NCBI GenBank assembly: GCA_017999435.1
Contig: JAGNLV010000001.1
Location: forward strand, 156,501-220,500
Source of the DNA: Candidatus Zixiibacteriota bacterium
GTDB taxonomy: Bacteria > Zixibacteria > MSB-5A5 > GN15 > FEB-12
Length of the DNA stretch: 64,000 nucleotides
Direction: 5' to 3'
The position numbers and the translations under genes were made by a program. Positions within the stretch are counted from its first letter, which is position 1, and each line of letters begins with the position of its first letter. The notes under the pieces were generated by a model. It made no database searches, was not told the DNA's origin, and saw nothing but the letters and a program-made list of their open reading frames with translations. Shown here in pieces: positions 47,259 through 56,412 of this stretch.

Positions 47259-48221
47259 TCACCACTCCTCCAACATCTTCCTCTGCTCCTCCGTCAGATC
47301 GGCCGCTCTTGGGATCCGCACATCCACTTCGACATACTGGTCTCCCTGCACGCCGCCCACCGAGAGCCCCATCCCCTTCAGCCGGAGTTTTGTCCCGGGC
47401 TGCGTTCCCGGCGGGATCGTCACCTGAATCTCCTTTAGCGGCGTCCTGACCCGGGCCTTGCCGCCGAGAATCGCATCCTTCAGGGGAATTGTGACCTTCG
47501 TGTAGATGTCATTCCCCTTTCTTTCGAACTGATGGTCGGCCATAACCTTCACCGTGATGAGTAAGTCTCCGGGCACACCCGGCGGCATTTCGGGCCTCGC
47601 GGGCGCGGGCATCCCCTGCCCCGCCAGCCGGATCACGCCGCCATTTTCTATTCCAGGCGGGATCGTCACCTGGATCGTCCTGCCGGTCTGACGGATACGG
47701 AGGCGCTTGCGGGTTCCCGCGACCGCCTCTCGCAGCGTGACCGTCACCGTCGCCTTCAGATCCGTCCCCCGCGCCTGCCGGGCCCGGCGCGGGCGCACCC
47801 GTTCTTTGCCGAACTCCGTTCCGAACCCGCCCCGCCCGCCGAAAAACTGCGATAGAATCTCGTCCAGCCCCTCCACCCCGCCGCCGAATCGGAACGTCTG
47901 AAATCCGCCCCGGCCGCCCGCTCCCTGGCGGAAGAGATCGGAGAAATCGAATCCGCCGTTGCCGTGCGCGCCCGGGTCGAATCCCTGCCCCGCCCCGGCG
48001 AAGGCCCCGTACTTGCGGAGCGTGTCGTACTCCGCCCGCTTCTTCGGGTCGGACAGCGTCTCGTTGGCCTCGGAGATCTCCTTGAATCTCGCCTCCGCCT
48101 GGGCGTTTCCCGGATTGCGGTCCGGGTGGTACTTCATCGCCAGCTTGCGGAACGCTTTCTTGATCTCCTCCGGCGAGGCGTCCTCCTTCACGCCGAGTAT
48201 GTCGTAGTAATCCTTCGCCAT
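47259..48221 (-). CDS. cbpA: J-domain protein of the CbpA/type II class
   Basis: 320 residues: J domain (1-70) with the HPD motif in [10 protein letters not shown], a Gly/Phe-rich linker (about 75-125), and a C-terminal peptide-binding domain (about 145-310). The four-Cys zinc-finger region of DnaJ is missing, so this is a CbpA/DjlA-like class II co-chaperone rather than DnaJ proper. It stimulates DnaK and passes substrates to it. It lies in the dnaK cluster; grpE is not in the window. Confidence 0.9.
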
Positions 48222-48314
48222 GCCGACTTTCGCCCCCCGATTTTGTCTAATCTATCGTAACTAATACTGCTTCGGCAAGCATACTTCTCGCCCGCGCCCG
48301 GGAGGTGCCGGCTC

Positions 48315-48551
48315 TCACACTTGCCGCCCGGGCCGAAACTCTCCCTCCTTGTCCTCCTCCCTCGCATCCTCCTCGAGATAATTGACGTATTCGATCCGGT
48401 GCCGCTCGTCGCCGTTCTGCCACGCAGCATAAACGCTCCGGCCCATCGCCGCCCAGCGTTGGTCCACAAAGTGCCGTTTGATCACCCAGCCGGCGAAGAG
48501 ACAGATCCCCGCCAGCAGACCGCCGATCACACCTAACGATAAACTGTCCAC
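48315..48551 (-). CDS. small membrane protein in the chaperone cluster (unknown)
   Basis: 78 residues from the GTG at 48551 (GAGGAG just upstream). One N-terminal membrane helix (about 5-25) is followed by a highly charged cytoplasmic or periplasmic tail with many Glu and Asp. Position between dnaK and the J-domain gene, all leftward, suggests co-expression. No family recognised. Confidence 0.55.
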   Translation of the reverse strand: MDSLSLGVIGGLLAGICLFAGWVIKRHFVDQRWAAMGRSVYAAWQNGDERHRIEYVNYLEEDAREEDKEGEFRPGRQV

Positions 48552-48662
48552 GCGCTCCTCATTTCTCGATTATCACGGCGACCCGCTGGCGTTCACCATG
48601 CGCCGGCGGCCGGCCGGAAATCGCCGACCGACCGCCGCCTTGCCTCGCGATCCGCCGCTTCC

Positions 48663-50573
48663 TCACTTCACCTCTTCGAAATCGGCGTCGACTGCGTCCG
48701 CGTCCGGACGACCGGCGGCGCCGGTCTGCGGGCCGGATCCGTTGCCGCCGGGTTGAGCGCCCGCTGTCGGCCCGGCCGCCTGCCGGTAGAGGTCGGCCGA
48801 GACCTGCTGCCAGGCGGTCTGAAGATCCTCGGCGGCCCGGCTCATCTCGTCGGCGTTGTCTCCCTTGAGGGCCGCACGCACCCGCTCGGTCGCCGCCCCG
48901 AGAGCCGCCGTCTGTTCCTGGCTGAGTTTGTCGCCGAGCTCCTTCATCTGCGTGTCCGACTGCCAGACGGCCGCGTCGGCCCGGTTGCGCGCCTCGACCC
49001 GGCGCTTCTTCTCCCGGTCTTCCGCCTCGTGCTGCTGGGCGTCCGCCACCATCCGCGCGATCTCCTGTTCGCTCAGGCCCGAGGAGGCTTCGATCCGGAC
49101 ATTCTGCGCCCGGCCGGTCGCCGTGTCCTTGGCCGACACGTTGATGATCCCGTTGGCGTCGATGTCGAACGTCACCTCGATCTGCGGGACACCGCGCGGG
49201 GCCGGCGGGATCCCGTCGAGAATGAACCGCCCGATCGTCTTGTTGTCGATCGCCATCTCGCGCTCCCCCTGGAGCACGTGGATATCCACCTGCGGCTGGT
49301 TGTCCGCGGCCGTCGAGAAAACCTGCGACTTGCGCGTCGGGATCGTCGTGTTGCGCTCGATCAGCCGGGTCATCACCCCGCCGAGCGTCTCGATCCCCAG
49401 CGAGAGCGGCGTCACGTCCAGAAGCAGCACGTCCTTGACGTCTCCCGCGAGCACGCCCCCCTGGATCGCCGCGCCGATCGCCACCACTTCGTCCGGATTG
49501 ACCGACCGGTTGGGTTCCTTGCGGAAGAACTCTTTCACGATCTGCTGCACCTTCGGCATCCGCGTCATCCCGCCGACCAGGATCACGTCGTCGATCCGGT
49601 CGACCGTGAGCTTGGCGTCGGCCAGCGCGTTCTGCACCGGCCGCTTCGTCCGTTCGAGCAGGTCGTCCACCAGCGACTCCAGCCTGGCCCGCGTGAGGGT
49701 CACGTTCAGGTGCCGCGGCCCGTTCTGGTCGGCCGTGATGAACGGCAGGTTGATGGCTGTCTGGAGCGTCGACGACAGTTCGACTTTGGCCTTCTCGGCC
49801 GCCTCGCGCAGCCGCTGGAGCGCCATCGGGTCCTTCCCCAGGTCGATCCCGTCCGACATGCGGAACTCTTCGATCAGCCAGTCCATGATGCGTTTGTCGA
49901 AATCGTCGCCGCCGAGGTGGGTGTCGCCGTTGGTCGAAAGCACTTCGAACACCCCGTCGCTCAGTTCGAGGATCGAGATGTCGAACGTGCCGCCGCCGAG
50001 ATCGAACACCGCCACTTTGCCGACTTTCTTCTTGTCCAGGCCGTAGGCGAGCGCCGCCGCCGTCGGCTCGTTGATAATCCGCAGGACCTCCAGCCCGGCG
50101 ATCCGGCCCGCGTCTTTGGTCGCCTGGCGCTGCGAGTCGTTGAAATAGGCGGGGACCGTAATCACAGCCTTAGTCACCGCCTGGCCGAGGTAGTCCTCCG
50201 CCGTCTTCTTCATCTTCCCGAGCACCATGGCCGAGATCTGGGCCGGCTTGTACGTCTGGCCGGCCATCTCAATCACCGGCGATTCGTCCGGTCCGCGGTT
50301 GACTTTGTAGGGAAAATTCGCGATTTCCGCCTGCACTTCGTCAAACCGGCGCCCGATCAGGCGTTTGACCGAAAACACAGTGTTCAGCGGGTTGGTGACC
50401 GCCTGGCGCTTGGCCACCGTCCCCACCAGCCGCTCGCCGTTCCGATCGATCGCCACCACCGAGGGCGTGGTGCGCCCTCCCTCGCTGTTGGCGATTACCG
50501 TCGGCTCGCCCCCCTCGACCACCGCAACCACCGAGTTGGTCGTCCCCAGGTCTATTCCGATTATCTTGCTCAT
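48663..50573 (-). CDS. dnaK: chaperone protein DnaK
   Basis: 636 residues, typical length. ATPase domain with [12 protein letters not shown] at the start, the [25 protein letters not shown] and [11 protein letters not shown] blocks; substrate-binding domain from about 390; helical lid; and a C-terminus ending in the usual DADFEEVK. It works with the J-domain protein and ClpB encoded downstream. hsp20 lies upstream, separated by a terminator. Confidence 0.97.
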
Positions 50574-50628
50574 CCGTCAAATCCTCCTGTCTTCGTAGCC
50601 CCCCGGCCCGGTCCGCACTCCTGTCTTC

Positions 50629-50657
50629 TTAACAAAAGGCCGGTCATGGACCGGCCT
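50629..50657 (-). terminator. rho-independent terminator of hsp20
   Basis: Perfect 9-bp stem AGGCCGGTC/GACCGGCCT with a 3-base loop followed (leftward) by TTTTGTT, between hsp20 and dnaK. It shows that hsp20 is a separate transcription unit, though read-through may reach dnaK. Confidence 0.75.
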
Positions 50658-50726
50658 CTCGATTCCTTCGGAAATCTCCATCGCGTCGGTCGGCAATGGC
50701 GTGGCTTTCCGGTCTGGACTGGTGAA

Positions 50727-51152
50727 TCAGCCCACGCTGACTTCGATCTCCTTGGGCTTCACCGCTTCCTTCTTGGCCAGCTTCACCTCGAGCATTCCGT
50801 TCCGGTAGTCGGCCGCGATCTTGTCGGTGTCGATCGTGTCGGGAACCGTGAACGATCGGCTGAACGCCCCGGTGAGGATCTCCCGGCGAACGACCTCCGC
50901 GTTCTCGTCGTCCACCGTCTTGCGCTCTCCGGACACCGTGAGCACGTTTTCTTTCACCGTGACCTTGATGTCCTGCTTGTCGATCCCTGGGAGCTCGAAC
51001 ACCAGGCGCACATCATCCTTGGTCTCGCGGATATTCACGCGGGGCATAAAATCGCACGCACACTCGGCACTGATCTGCGGAAAACTGATGAAGGTGTTGA
51101 ACATGCTGTCGATTTCCCGCGCCAACCGATTCGGAATCATCACGCTACGCAT
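50727..51152 (-). CDS. small heat-shock protein, Hsp20 family
   Basis: 141 residues from the ATG at 51152, with AAGGAGG eight bases upstream. The alpha-crystallin domain covers about residues 35-130 (VNIRETKDDVRLVFELPGI, then the GxLxVxxAKK-type end NGMLEVKLAKKE). The tail lacks a clear Ile-x-Ile motif but has IEVSV. It is an ATP-independent holdase that delivers substrates to DnaK/ClpB. A candidate sigma-54 promoter lies upstream. Confidence 0.93.
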   Translation of the reverse strand: MRSVMIPNRLAREIDSMFNTFISFPQISAECACDFMPRVNIRETKDDVRLVFELPGIDKQDIKVTVKENVLTVSGERKTVDDENAEVVRREILTGAFSRSFTVPDTIDTDKIAADYRNGMLEVKLAKKEAVKPKEIEVSVG

Positions 51153-51219
51153 TTCTGGAACCTCCTTATTTCGTCTCTCTGTTTCTCGATTCCTTCTGTG
51201 ACTTCTGTCATAAGTGATT

Positions 51220-51235
51220 ATCAACTTCCGTGCCA
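51220..51235 (-). promoter_or_regulatory. candidate sigma-54 promoter of hsp20
   Basis: Reading leftward, TGGCACG, then four bases, then TTGAT: this matches the -24 element exactly and the -12 element except for A instead of C. The predicted start is near 51208, 56 bases before the hsp20 ATG. Confidence 0.35.
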
Positions 51236-51462
51236 TTCCACATAAGCACATGATTGACAACAATATCACTATAACGAATCTGCTCGTTCCGATGACCAAC
51301 CTGCCAAGAATGTCAGCATGGCTGCCAAATAGGCGGTGATAGTCTGTCAACTGGCCAGCTCAACCGCCAATCCGGCAGTCAGCCTCCCGGCAGTCAAGCT
51401 GGTTAGTCCGGAGTCCGAAAAAAAACTTGGACGCCACCCCGGAATTCGCCATCCTTTAGTTG

Positions 51463-51543: not shown

Positions 51544-52215
51544 ATGCTTAGGCACATTGCTTTGACCGGGATTTGCGTGGTGCTGATCGCCGCCCTTGTC
51601 GGCTGCGGTATGAGCAAAACGCAGAAAGGGGCTCTGATCGGCGCCGGGTCGGGGGCCGTGGTCGGCGGACTAGTCGGCAACGCCGCCGGCAACACGGCGG
51701 TCGGCGCGATCATCGGCGCCGCCGTTGGCGGCGCGGCCGGCGCCTATATCGGCCACTACATGGATCAGCAAGCTGAGGAAATGCAGAAGGACCTTGAAGG
51801 GGCGCGGATCGAGCGTGTCGGCGAAGGCATCAAGATTACGTTCGCTTCCGGAATCCTTTTCGACGTGAACAAGGCCGACCTGCGGCCCGAGGCCCAGCAG
51901 AACCTCGTGAACCTCGCCGCCATTCTCAACAAGTACGCCGAGACCAATGTCCTCATCGAGGGGCACACCGACACGACCGGATCGGATTCCTACAACCTCA
52001 CGCTCTCCCGCTCCCGCGCGGAGTCGGTCTCGAGTTTCCTCGCTGCCCAGCAGGTAGTGAGCAACCGCTTCATCATCCAGGGTTACGGCGAACAGCAGCC
52101 GATCGCCACGGAGAACACCGCGGCCGCCATGCAGGCCAACCGGCGCGTAGAGATCGCCATCTACGCCAATGACAAACTGAAGAAAGCGGCCGAGGAGCAG
52201 GTGCAAGAGGGCTGA
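51544..52215 (+). CDS. OmpA-family lipoprotein with glycine zipper
   Basis: 223 residues. Lipoprotein signal with lipobox Leu-Val-Gly-Cys (Cys21), a Gly-rich zipper segment (about 30-70, GSGAVVGGLVGNAAGNTAVG), and an OmpA-like peptidoglycan-binding domain (about 95-205) with LIEGHTDTTGSDSYN, SRSRAESVSSFL and NRRVEI. This is the layout of YiaD/Pal-like proteins that tie the outer membrane to peptidoglycan. It is followed by a strong terminator, so it is a single-gene unit. Confidence 0.92.
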   Translation: MLRHIALTGICVVLIAALVGCGMSKTQKGALIGAGSGAVVGGLVGNAAGNTAVGAIIGAAVGGAAGAYIGHYMDQQAEEMQKDLEGARIERVGEGIKITFASGILFDVNKADLRPEAQQNLVNLAAILNKYAETNVLIEGHTDTTGSDSYNLTLSRSRAESVSSFLAAQQVVSNRFIIQGYGEQQPIATENTAAAMQANRRVEIAIYANDKLKKAAEEQVQEG

Positions 52216-52282: not shown

Positions 52283-53599
52283 TCACCTCTTGACAGCTTT
52301 ACTGCCCGGCGGCCCCCCTCCTGCCCGGCCAGCCTTGCCGCCGGCGGCTGTCCACCCGGCGGGCGGCGTAAGTCCGGGGTTATCCCTATGCGCCCCGCTC
52401 GCCCCGGCCTCCGGAGACTCTGTTCCATCGTCGGCCTGCGCTTCCGCTTGCTCCGCGGCGACCCCCGGGAGGGTGCCCAAACAGATCACCCGCCCCCGGT
52501 CGGTAGCGAGATAGAGTCGGTCGCCGTCGGTCGCCGGCGCCTGGTCAATACGTCCCTCCAGCTTGCGCCGGCTCAGCACCGACCCGCTGGCCGCGTCGAG
52601 AACGTACACGTTGCCGCCCAGCGTCCCGACCGCCACGAACCGCCCGATCACCGCCGCCGATGCCGCGATCACCTCGAACGCCTGGAAACGCCACAGCACG
52701 CGGCCGTCGACCAGATTCAGGGCCACCAGTTCGCCGCCGGAATGCCCGACAAAAACGCGTCCCTCGGCCACCGCCGGCTTGGTCCAGACCGGCGCTCCTA
52801 TGTCGGTGCGCCACCGGACAGTACCGTCCTGAGCGTCGATCCCGTAGACCCGCCCCGGCATGTCCGCCCCCACGACCAGTTCGGCGACCGCCACGCCGCC
52901 GACCATCGGCCCGTCCACTTTCACGCGATAGCGCTCCGTCCCGTCGTTCGGGTCCAGGGCGTAAAGAAACCCGCTGACCCCCGGCTGGAACACCAACCCG
53001 TGTCCCGCCGCCGGCGGGGCCATAAACCGGTCCTGTGTTTCCTCAAACGTCCACACTTCGCGCCCGTCGGCCGGATCGTACGCCGTGAGCCGCCCCGTCG
53101 CCGAGCCTATCACAAGCCGGTTAGCGGCGACAATGGCCCCCCGCGCGGTTTCCTTGACAAACCGCTTCCATTGCTCGTCACCCGACCGCAAGTCGAAACA
53201 GCTCAGCCGATTCCCGATACTGACCGCGCAGTACCCGTATCCCCCTTCCGCCACCAGCCCCGACTGCACCGGTCCCTTCGTCTTGATCTTGCCGGATCGC
53301 CGGCCTGTCCCGGTCTCGTACATCTCCACGCGGTTGCGCGTCGAGGGGACCGCCAGCGATCCTCCGTGGAGCGTGAGCGGACCGGCCGGCTTCCCCGCCA
53401 TCGAGGTTTCCCAGATCACGTCCAGGCGGCCCGCAAACTCGCCCGCCGGTGCGCACCCGGTGGCGCTCGCGCCGCCGTGGTAGTACGGCCAGGGGGATCC
53501 CTCCTGAAGGTTCTCCGGGGAGAGCTGCAGGCTCGACGAGCACGCCGCCGCGAGCATGGCCGCGGCCGCCGCCAATATGGTCAGGAGACGGGGCGCCAT
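52283..53599 (-). CDS. PQQ-type beta-propeller lipoprotein (BamB-like)
   Basis: 438 residues from the ATG at 53599, sharing a base with the upstream stop (TGATG); an ATG at 53611 is also possible. It has a lipobox at Cys20, then a propeller of about seven PQQ-like repeats (for example GRLTAYDPADGREVWTFEE and GRVYGIDAQDGTVRWRTDI), then a Pro/Gly/Ala-rich tail. BamB-like proteins help outer-membrane protein assembly, but generic PQQ-propellers have other roles. It is coupled to the barrel-peptidase gene upstream. Confidence 0.8.
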   Translation of the reverse strand: MAPRLLTILAAAAAMLAAACSSSLQLSPENLQEGSPWPYYHGGASATGCAPAGEFAGRLDVIWETSMAGKPAGPLTLHGGSLAVPSTRNRVEMYETGTGRRSGKIKTKGPVQSGLVAEGGYGYCAVSIGNRLSCFDLRSGDEQWKRFVKETARGAIVAANRLVIGSATGRLTAYDPADGREVWTFEETQDRFMAPPAAGHGLVFQPGVSGFLYALDPNDGTERYRVKVDGPMVGGVAVAELVVGADMPGRVYGIDAQDGTVRWRTDIGAPVWTKPAVAEGRVFVGHSGGELVALNLVDGRVLWRFQAFEVIAASAAVIGRFVAVGTLGGNVYVLDAASGSVLSRRKLEGRIDQAPATDGDRLYLATDRGRVICLGTLPGVAAEQAEAQADDGTESPEAGASGAHRDNPGLTPPAGWTAAGGKAGRAGGGPPGSKAVKR

Positions 53600-56412
53600 C
53601 AGAAATTCCATCCAAAAAAGAAGTCGAACTCGGTGTTGCGGCTGATCGTCTCGAAATCCGTCGTCCGGCTGAAATCAAACCGCAGGAGGATCAGGTTCGC
53701 CAAGGCCACCCGGAATCCTGCCCCGAACGATCCGTAGAACTGGTCGAACTCTTCCTCCCAGGCCGACCCGACATCGGCGAAAATCGCCCCGCGAATCGCC
53801 CGAAAGCCGATACCGCCGATCGGCGAGCCGATACTCAGCACGTTGATCAGGGGGAACCGCAGTTCGTTGGAGGCAAAGAGCACGTGCCGCGTGTACCATT
53901 CCCGCCGGTCGAACCCGCGGAATGACCAGCTCCCCCCGAAATAGATCCGCTGCGGCTCGGTCCCCTCCGACCAGTAGGCGAACAGCCGGTTGGCGAACGC
54001 CGAGACCCGCCCGAGCCGGAAATAATGCCGGACGTCGGCCGCCGCCAGCCGATTGAACGACCGCACCCCGTCCAGCCGCGTGGTCAGCCCGACAGTGAGA
54101 TTGTACCGCCGCCCGTCGATCGGCCCCGAAATGTCCCACAGCGAGTTGTCGTACACCCAACTGAGATAGTTCGTCATCAACACCGCCCGGCGGTCCCGCG
54201 TCCGTGTCCCCTCCTCCCGGTTCGAATGCCGCCCCACCGTCGTCACGTCCAGCCGGTGGAACTTGGAGAACGGGTAGCTGAACACCCCGATCATCCCCGC
54301 CTGCCGCTCCCAGTAGAAACCGTCGTAGTCGTTGAAATACTCGTCGTACAGGTGGAACGCCCCGATCCCCCAGTTGAGCCGCCGCTCCCGGTTGAGGTAG
54401 GTCACTCCGATATTGAACGACTGCAGAAACTCGTCCTTGGTATTGGCCGTGTTGGTCAGGAGGAAATGGTACGAGTGGTTTCCCAGCATGTCCGACATGG
54501 CGAACTGGAAACCTCCGAGCGACCCGTAGACCGGGTCGTAGCCGACCGCCGACTGGGCAATATCGAGCGAGTAGTCGGTCTCGTACTTCACCGAGCTCTT
54601 CACGTATTTCGAGTCGATCCGATCGGGCCGCCAGGACGGTGTCGGCGGCGGCGTCTCCTGCGCTACCGGCGCCGGCTCGGCCGGGAGCTCCATGCGGAAC
54701 ACCTGGTACCCCATCTTCTGGTACCCGCTGTACACCAACCCCTTTCCATCCGGCGTCACCCGCGGTTCAAACGCCCCCGTCACGTAGGTCGACTGCCGCG
54801 TCAGGCCGCCGAGGCTGTCGAGCCGGTAAATGTTGAATGTCCCGTTCCGGTCCGAGGTGAAATAGATCCCGCCGGCCGCGCCGTCCGGCGTCTGGTCGCG
54901 GTAACGCCCGAACGTCAACTGCCGCACGGTCCCCGATCCGAGGGCGTAGGAGAACAGGTTGAGCGCCCCCTCTTTCCCCTCCGGCCCGCGGTCGGAGGCA
55001 AACACGATCTGGTTCCCGTCGGGCGAAAACACCGGATCGGTGTCGTAGTAGATGTCCTCCAGAATCGGGCGGTAGGCGCCGTCCGCCAGATTGAGCGCGT
55101 AGACGTCGGCCATCCCGCCGAGCGTCACCCCCGCGAACACCAACTGCGTGCCGTCGGGCGAAAGCCGGGGGGAATGCGCTCCCGCGAGATCGGCGAACTC
55201 GTAGCGGTGCGTGACCCGCTCCTCGCGCAGATTGTAGACGTAGATAACGTCGTTCCCTTTCGACTTCGATGAGAACACGACCATCCCCGAGTCGGTCGCG
55301 TCAATCCCCGACCGCAGAAGGTAGAGGGATTCGAAATCGGACGAGCGCTCCCCTTTCAGGAGCGTCTTTACCCGCCGGCCGCGCCCCTCACCGGAGGGGG
55401 TCATGTAGATCCCCGAGTAGCCCATCCGATTGGCCTTGAACACGATCCACTCCCGCCGCCCGTCGCCGGCGTCCCACATGATCGGCACGCCCCGCACCGA
55501 ATAGCCGTCGCGCGTGATCTGCACCGACTCCATATCCGGCAGCCCCGCCTCCTCCAACTGCGGGTAGTAGCACTTCTTGAGCGAATACCGCCACTTCCGG
55601 GAGACCTCGCGAAGGTCGTCACCGAGCGTCAGCTTCACCACCTCGTCGAACGTCTTCCCCTTGGCGAGATTCTCAAACAGCAGAGTGAGCTTCTCCGGTC
55701 CGTAAGTCGAATCGATGAAAGTGCAGATGGACTCGCCGAGCTTGTACATGTAGTAAGAGCCCGCCACCCGGTAGAGGTCCTCGATTCCGAGCTGGAGTTC
55801 GTTGACGGCCATGTCCTTGACCACCATCTCGGCCTCGGCGTCCCACGCCTTCGACCAGTACTCCGCCAGTCCCTCCGTAAACCACAGCGGCGGCCGCCCG
55901 AAATTCACCCGCCCCATGCGCGCGAGCACCGCCTCCATCTTGGAGAGCTGGAACACGTGAACCAGTTCGTGGCGGAGGACGTGCGCGAAATCGTAGTACG
56001 ACCCGTGGAACGGCAGCACCACCCGCCCCTTCATGAACTCGGTGAATCCCCCCACCGACTCCGGCAGAAGGCTCGGGATCACGTTGGTCTGGCTGAAATA
56101 ACTGGGCGAGGAGTAGATGATCAGCGGCGTCTTCTCGTTGATCTCGTGGTTGAATTTCGCCGCCAGCGCCCGGTAGCTGTCCTCCGCCAACTGGGCCGCG
56201 ATCCGGGCGATCTCCTCCTCCTCGGAATAGAAGTAGATGCGGAAATGCTCGGTCGTCATGACCTGCCAGTCGAAACGGGTGTACTGGACTTTGTTTTTCC
56301 CGAAATAGAACTGGGCCTGCGCCGGCAGCCACAGACCGACAGCCGCGGCCGCCAGCACGGCCGTCCACACCCACTTCATTTTCCGGGAATTTCTCATCCG
56401 CCGTTCACCCAT
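53599..56412 (-). CDS. fusion: gluzincin peptidase, TolB-like propeller and Omp85-type barrel
   Basis: 937 residues. A signal peptide (about 12-34) is followed by a gluzincin (peptidase MA-like) domain (about 40-290) with HELVH at 148-152 and WFTEGLAEYW supplying the third ligand; then WD40-like TolB/PD40 propeller blades (about 300-590; SPDGTQLVFAG, SPDGNQIVFASDRG); then a beta-barrel (about 620-937) with RIYFGGSWSFRGFDRREW, the pattern of the Omp85/BamA lid-lock region, and a C-terminal Phe. All three parts look intact. It is a likely outer-membrane protein with periplasmic or surface peptidase. The first Met (56412) is used; M6 and M12 are alternatives. Confidence 0.85.
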   Translation of the reverse strand: MGERRMRNSRKMKWVWTAVLAAAAVGLWLPAQAQFYFGKNKVQYTRFDWQVMTTEHFRIYFYSEEEEIARIAAQLAEDSYRALAAKFNHEINEKTPLIIYSSPSYFSQTNVIPSLLPESVGGFTEFMKGRVVLPFHGSYYDFAHVLRHELVHVFQLSKMEAVLARMGRVNFGRPPLWFTEGLAEYWSKAWDAEAEMVVKDMAVNELQLGIEDLYRVAGSYYMYKLGESICTFIDSTYGPEKLTLLFENLAKGKTFDEVVKLTLGDDLREVSRKWRYSLKKCYYPQLEEAGLPDMESVQITRDGYSVRGVPIMWDAGDGRREWIVFKANRMGYSGIYMTPSGEGRGRRVKTLLKGERSSDFESLYLLRSGIDATDSGMVVFSSKSKGNDVIYVYNLREERVTHRYEFADLAGAHSPRLSPDGTQLVFAGVTLGGMADVYALNLADGAYRPILEDIYYDTDPVFSPDGNQIVFASDRGPEGKEGALNLFSYALGSGTVRQLTFGRYRDQTPDGAAGGIYFTSDRNGTFNIYRLDSLGGLTRQSTYVTGAFEPRVTPDGKGLVYSGYQKMGYQVFRMELPAEPAPVAQETPPPTPSWRPDRIDSKYVKSSVKYETDYSLDIAQSAVGYDPVYGSLGGFQFAMSDMLGNHSYHFLLTNTANTKDEFLQSFNIGVTYLNRERRLNWGIGAFHLYDEYFNDYDGFYWERQAGMIGVFSYPFSKFHRLDVTTVGRHSNREEGTRTRDRRAVLMTNYLSWVYDNSLWDISGPIDGRRYNLTVGLTTRLDGVRSFNRLAAADVRHYFRLGRVSAFANRLFAYWSEGTEPQRIYFGGSWSFRGFDRREWYTRHVLFASNELRFPLINVLSIGSPIGGIGFRAIRGAIFADVGSAWEEEFDQFYGSFGAGFRVALANLILLRFDFSRTTDFETISRNTEFDFFFGWNF

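Follow-up and report, generated by a model that had tools for sequence, protein, structure and literature searches.

What does a single protein do that joins a zinc peptidase, a beta-propeller and an outer-membrane barrel in one chain? The question is raised by a gene in a 64,000-nucleotide stretch of DNA from a Candidatus Zixiibacteriota bacterium (contig JAGNLV010000001.1), here called the window; the host genome comprises 3.5 Mb in 7 contigs. The open reading frame at 53599-56412 of the minus strand encodes 937 residues (P0001), and its boundaries match exactly those of a first-pass annotation made from the sequence alone, which had proposed that a gluzincin peptidase, a TolB-like propeller and an Omp85-like barrel are joined here. 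The domains follow each other in the order signal peptide, gluzincin-type peptidase, TolB-like propeller and C-terminal 16-stranded Omp85 barrel. Judged from its predicted structure, P0001 is an Omp85-superfamily outer-membrane protein without POTRA domains. The family to which it belongs is real, widespread and uncharacterised, and a quality-control or processing role for outer-membrane clients is a plausible best guess for its function. The main parts of the gene are as follows.

53599..56412, minus strand: whole gene of P0001, peptidase-propeller-Omp85 barrel, 937 residues (open reading frame, Pfam, model)
56314..56412, minus strand: signal peptide, residues 1-33 (sequence LPAQAQ/F; model helix 3-26)
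55513..56313, minus strand: gluzincin-type zinc peptidase domain, residues 34-300 (PF13485 above cut-off)
54673..55503, minus strand: TolB-like propeller, residues 304-580 (PD40; TolB fold match)
53602..54585, minus strand: 16-stranded Omp85-type barrel, residues 610-937, with loop 6 at residues 818-842 (PF01103, model, fold search)

The proposed union of three domains is borne out by family searches and by the structural model. A Pfam scan of P0001 returned Peptidase_MA_2 (PF13485) at 36.9 bits, with a cut-off of 32.4, and PD40 at 61.6 bits in four stretches, and showed the barrel only as a trace. In a genome-wide search the C-terminus matched PF01103 (Omp85) at 28.3 bits (cut-off 24), a match that is borderline because the separate Pfam scan did not report it. 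The TolB, Omp85_fam and BamA matches of the NCBIfam scan all lie far below their cut-offs; the equivalog models of BamA (TIGR03303) and TolB (TIGR02800) scored 16.8 bits versus 297 and 108.5 bits versus 343, respectively. POTRA is absent from P0001 in the Pfam scan and in the genome search, where the POTRA model matches three other loci, and the M48 family is absent from it in the Pfam scans. The AlphaFold2 model, built on 71 family members, has a mean predicted local distance difference test (pLDDT) value of 86.8 and a predicted template modelling score of 0.85, and consists of a signal helix, a mixed alpha/beta peptidase domain, the propeller (residues ~304-580) and the barrel. The start codon and the cleavage site are predicted ones, and translation may begin at Met6 or Met12. 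A fold search with the model placed the propeller close to TolB (Z 26.6 over 240 residues, 2.4 Å); tricorn and S9 peptidases are further matches of the propeller.

Is the barrel a working Omp85 barrel or only a membrane anchor? The model rules out that there is no barrel: 16 strands lie between residues 614 and 935, and the long loop 818-842 carries the Arg-Gly pair at 832-833. The closest folds are BamA (Z 23.7 over 304 residues, 3.4 Å), Sam50 (Z 23.4) and TamA (Z 22.1). Conservation was scored on 23 orthologues with mutual identity below 62%.

53896..53925, minus strand: SFRGFDRREW, Omp85 loop-6 RG motif, residues 830-839 (R832 and G833 invariant in 81 in-phylum sequences)
54535..54573, minus strand: first barrel strand, bordering the seam, residues 614-626 (conservation 0.87, second of the 16 strands)
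53608..53631, minus strand: barrel strand 16 with the C-terminal beta-signal, residues 928-935 (conservation 0.88, top of the 16 strands)

Strands 1 and 16, the pair that closes the barrel, are thus conserved above all others, and loop 6 scores 0.82, compared with 0.71 for the whole barrel, 0.69 for the peptidase and 0.60 for the propeller. Read from the alignment, this pattern at the seam and loop 6 is as expected of an Omp85 gate rather than of a plain anchor. It bears on a different explanation, in which the barrel is a mere anchor and the peptidase-propeller half acts as a gated enzyme that degrades peptides, with substrates screened by the propeller in the manner of tricorn and prolyl oligopeptidases. 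The tricorn and S9 matches of the propeller agree with that explanation, as do a barrel-less version of the protein in Salinibacter and, at one locus (L064), an S9 prolyl oligopeptidase gene inserted between the barrel gene and its downstream lipoprotein gene. In a mere anchor, however, one would not expect barrel conservation to peak at the loop-6 RG pair and at strands 1 and 16, and near-universal presence in the phylum with a near-fixed lipoprotein partner suits a scavenging enzyme poorly. We regard an anchored enzyme of this kind as rather unlikely.

The Salinibacter protein is encoded on plasmid pSR116 of Salinibacter ruber (L220:3408-5309), is annotated as basic secretory protein-like and carries the FGKNK motif described below. 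It indicates that the peptidase-propeller front half can exist without the barrel. The gene is not one half of a split protease/barrel pair, as the next gene encodes a serine carboxypeptidase-like protein.

Is the peptidase site intact? The residues in question and a third conserved segment are located as follows.

55957..55971, minus strand: HELVH, residues 148-152, with H148 and H152 as proposed zinc ligands and E149 as catalytic Glu (motif conservation)
55855..55875, minus strand: EGLAEYW, residues 180-186, with E180 as proposed third zinc ligand (conservation; zinc role by analogy with gluzincins)
56290..56304, minus strand: FGKNK motif of the mature N-terminus, residues 37-41 (F37, G38, N40 and K41 invariant in 71 sequences)

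Across 81 in-phylum sequences, 66 of them orthologues and 15 paralogues, H148, E149, H152 and E180 do not vary. The proposed zinc-site residues are thus retained, and neither of the two outcomes that the first-pass annotation named as refuting, loss of zinc ligands in most homologues and lack of a predicted barrel, was observed. Within EGLAEYW, G181 and A183 are invariant together with E180. HExxH is kept in 59/59 homologues from other phyla and in 140/140 homologues inspected overall; the pattern W..EG.A occurs in 53 of those 59, and a looser form was not sought in the other six. The retention of HExxH in all 140 homologues and of E180 in the 81 sequences therefore argues that selection maintains the zinc site, and the active site is apparently intact at the sequence level. 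A degenerate peptidase was rejected, as none of the 140 homologues has lost HExxH. Searched against solved structures, the profile of the peptidase domain found only M9 collagenases, weakly (E 0.006), and the full-length fold search was uninformative on the peptidase fold because propeller and barrel matches filled it. The mature N-terminus, FYFGKNKVQYTxFDW, has a conservation score of 0.84, and the start of FGKNK is not confidently modelled (pLDDT below 50 at residues 27-37). Few parts of the family are as well conserved across all phyla as this FGxNK motif, which comes right after the signal peptide; the segment is perhaps a plug or a self-inhibiting element.

Does P0001 act alone? The first-pass annotation had coupled it to a BamB-like lipoprotein gene, starting at 52283 and ending at 53599. 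The start holds, and the other edge moves: the gene reaches 53611 and overlaps the barrel gene.

52283..53611, minus strand: P0002, BamB-like 8-bladed propeller lipoprotein, 442 residues (family scans, model, fold search)
53599..53611, minus strand: overlap of the barrel gene and the lipoprotein gene, 13 nucleotides (commonest arrangement across loci)

P0002 is a predicted lipoprotein with an 8-bladed PQQ-type propeller (pLDDT 89.5), and its lipobox Cys24 is invariant in 57 sequences. A disordered low-complexity tail follows about residue 395 (52283-52430 of the window, minus strand) and is missing from most orthologues. The score against the BamB model TIGR03300 does not reach the cut-off (137.7 bits versus 285), and the fold is similar to BamB (Z 36-38) and as similar or more so to other 8-bladed propellers (Z 41). 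P0002 was therefore rejected as a true BamB: it falls below the BamB cut-off and its fold similarity is not specific to BamB. The host genome yielded no further small protein resembling BamB, the remaining weak matches all lying in one frame of 898 residues.

The coupling itself is confirmed across the phylum. There are 66 distinct in-phylum orthologue loci, five of which are cut off too close to the barrel gene to judge, and a P0002 homologue lies downstream on the same strand in 61/61 of the testable ones. It is the direct neighbour in 60, with spacing from an overlap to a 356-nucleotide gap; L064 is the interrupted one. Five loci of other phyla have the partner (L152-L155 and L160, the copy at L152 having no evident lipobox), and L156 leaves no room to tell. 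These six group with clade A of the phylum in the tree (local support 0.97), so that the linkage looks, as far as the tree and gene order go, like a single gain that has been kept since. The idea that the pair is always adjacent accordingly holds for the phylum, with its one insertion, and for this other-phylum subclade, and fails for clade B and deeper relatives. Because a co-inherited partner exists, the description of P0001 as a self-contained device is doubtful.

How widespread is the family? A whole-genome search found orthologues in 130/132 genomes of the phylum and in 78/78 of those with at least 90% completeness and at most 5% contamination; the two genomes that lack one are 68% and 77% complete. 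Among sampled genomes of other phyla, 55/156 match at E 1e-30 or better (185/288 in total, minus the 130 of the phylum), and many of these matches span the full length. Full-length homologues of the same order, across the phylum and in many others, rule out a chance or assembly fusion. The named records closest to P0001 are Candidatus Zixiibacteriota MAGs. Presence in all 78 near-complete genomes points to a housekeeping role. A second class of copies, clade B, co-occurs in the phylum and comprises proteins of 1024-1134 residues. The clade-B paralogue of the host itself (G000:C2:609553-612933; L086:9033-12437) has 1134 residues, the same three domains and no lipoprotein partner. At 14 clade-B loci a MurA-like gene, judged by eye, lies immediately upstream on the same strand.

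Could P0001 stand in for a known envelope component? The host genome encodes a separate TolB, above the TolB cut-off, as well as further Omp85 proteins, one of them BamA-like with five POTRA matches. P0001 as a substitute for either TolB or BamA was thus ruled out, and the system is an additional one. With the TolB-like propeller in mind, the peptidase might instead be a non-cutting binding module and P0001 a structural scaffold or a tether of the outer membrane to peptidoglycan, whose propeller binds Pal-type lipoproteins. An OmpA/Pal-like lipoprotein gene does adjoin the pair in the window (51544-52215); the 16 neighbour families that recur most widely at the phylum loci do not, however, include it, the genome has its own TolB, and HExxH is kept across phyla. 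Such a scaffold seems distinctly improbable.

The neighbourhood also bears on whether P0001 might be a translocase that moves proteins across the outer membrane and cleaves propeptides or anchors en route, a form of two-partner secretion with built-in processing. Omp85 relatives include translocases, a weak ShlB/FhaC match is present (E 0.042, below the cut-off), and the solved peptidases closest by profile, although weakly so, are secreted collagenases. Yet the conserved genes around the phylum loci include no widespread secreted client, and the fold matches listed are BamA, TamA and Sam50. A translocase is judged unlikely. Other neighbours recur near the pair. In many phylum loci a HEAT-repeat protein of ~730 residues directly follows the lipoprotein (e.g. 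L053:9866-12055), an arrangement not seen in the window. Hsp20, DnaK and DnaJ-like genes lie downstream of the pair in the window (47259-51350, minus strand), and Hsp20 or DnaK recurs downstream in 10-13 phylum loci. At two other-phylum loci (L154:2070-2894 and L160:8181-9005) the lipoprotein is followed by a secreted protein of 274 residues, PEGA-like by eye.

How might the parts work together? We favour, tentatively and at somewhat less than an even chance, a single complex that combines assembly and proteolysis of outer-membrane clients. The barrel would sit in the outer membrane, and the two domains ahead of it, zinc peptidase and TolB-like propeller, would project into the periplasm in the position of POTRA domains. 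P0002 would join them as an accessory similar to BamB, docking from the inner leaflet. Envelope proteins that are unfolded or only partly folded would be taken up by propeller and lipoprotein; some of these would be trimmed or destroyed by the peptidase, and the barrel seam could help to insert or pass on the remainder. A barrel of 16 strands has both its termini on one side, which, together with the periplasmic enzyme domain of PlpD discussed below, is counted in support of the periplasmic placement. Further support comes from the precedent of BepA, an HExxH peptidase at BamA, and from the partner, which adjoins the barrel gene at 60 of the 61 testable loci of the phylum and at five loci of other phyla and has an invariant Cys24.

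Several observations weigh against the assembly-proteolysis complex. P0001 has no POTRA, the carrier of partner and substrate binding in BamA. Strand 16 has other reasons to be conserved, namely the C-terminal beta-signal that it holds and, over the last three codons, the overlap with the lipoprotein gene; given that beta-signal, strand 1 speaks more cleanly for a working seam. The partner was not found beside the widespread clade B or beside deeper relatives at the loci inspected, and the peptidase-barrel core thus does not need it everywhere. The Salinibacter plasmid encodes the front half without a barrel.

Two papers, of 2014 (PMC4104836) and 2024 (PMC11116518), named the Omp85 subfamilies that carry propeller or enzyme domains as open targets, and the only one studied, PlpD, overturned expectations. 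The present family is core in a whole phylum and occurs in many others, its zinc-site residues are kept and a candidate partner is at hand. A vague class thereby becomes a set of testable proteins and residues: E149, E180, R832, strand 1 and Cys24 of the partner.

With which known systems does P0001 compare? In PlpD (patatin-Omp85) the enzyme domain is likewise N-terminal to the barrel and has been shown to be periplasmic (PMC11116518), but it is a patatin-like lipase, accompanied by POTRA and by no propeller. BepA, an M48 peptidase, acts through HExxH on clients at BamA (PMC8423444, PMC13067283); P0001 shares the association of an HExxH peptidase with an Omp85 barrel, whereas its domain is Peptidase MA, the association is covalent and no TPR was seen in it. 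The M9 collagenases ColG and ColH, the closest solved peptidases by profile, share HExxH and a downstream EG-A-E, but the match is weak (E 0.006) and collagenases are secreted and have no barrel. The propeller fold resembles TolB (Z 26.6), yet P0001 lies far below the equivalog cut-off and its propeller is fused to peptidase and barrel. BamA and BamB offer the same barrel fold with the loop-6 motif and an 8-bladed propeller lipoprotein as likely partner; P0001, by contrast, has a peptidase and a TolB-like propeller instead of POTRA, and P0002 is below the BamB cut-off.

The closest likeness is to the WD40-Omp85 subfamily defined by Heinz and Lithgow in 2014, who noted its TolB-like propeller and likened it to a BamA-BamB fusion (PMC4104836); that subfamily is likewise uncharacterised. 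P0001 agrees with this description in its TolB-like propeller N-terminal to the Omp85 barrel and its lack of POTRA; the main text of that paper, however, names neither a peptidase domain nor a separate lipoprotein partner, and the 'Metallo' counterpart subfamily uses PF00149, a different domain from the P0001 peptidase (PMC4104836). Compared by main-text description, the P0001 family is possibly identical to the published cluster. No other paper describing a peptidase-propeller-Omp85 architecture was found among open-licence papers, which is not proof of absence. The propeller-Omp85 fusion has thus been described before, while the papers searched yielded neither the intact peptidase nor the near-fixed lipoprotein partner, and P0001 is best filed as a propeller-Omp85 variant with a gluzincin of conserved active site and a linked lipoprotein.

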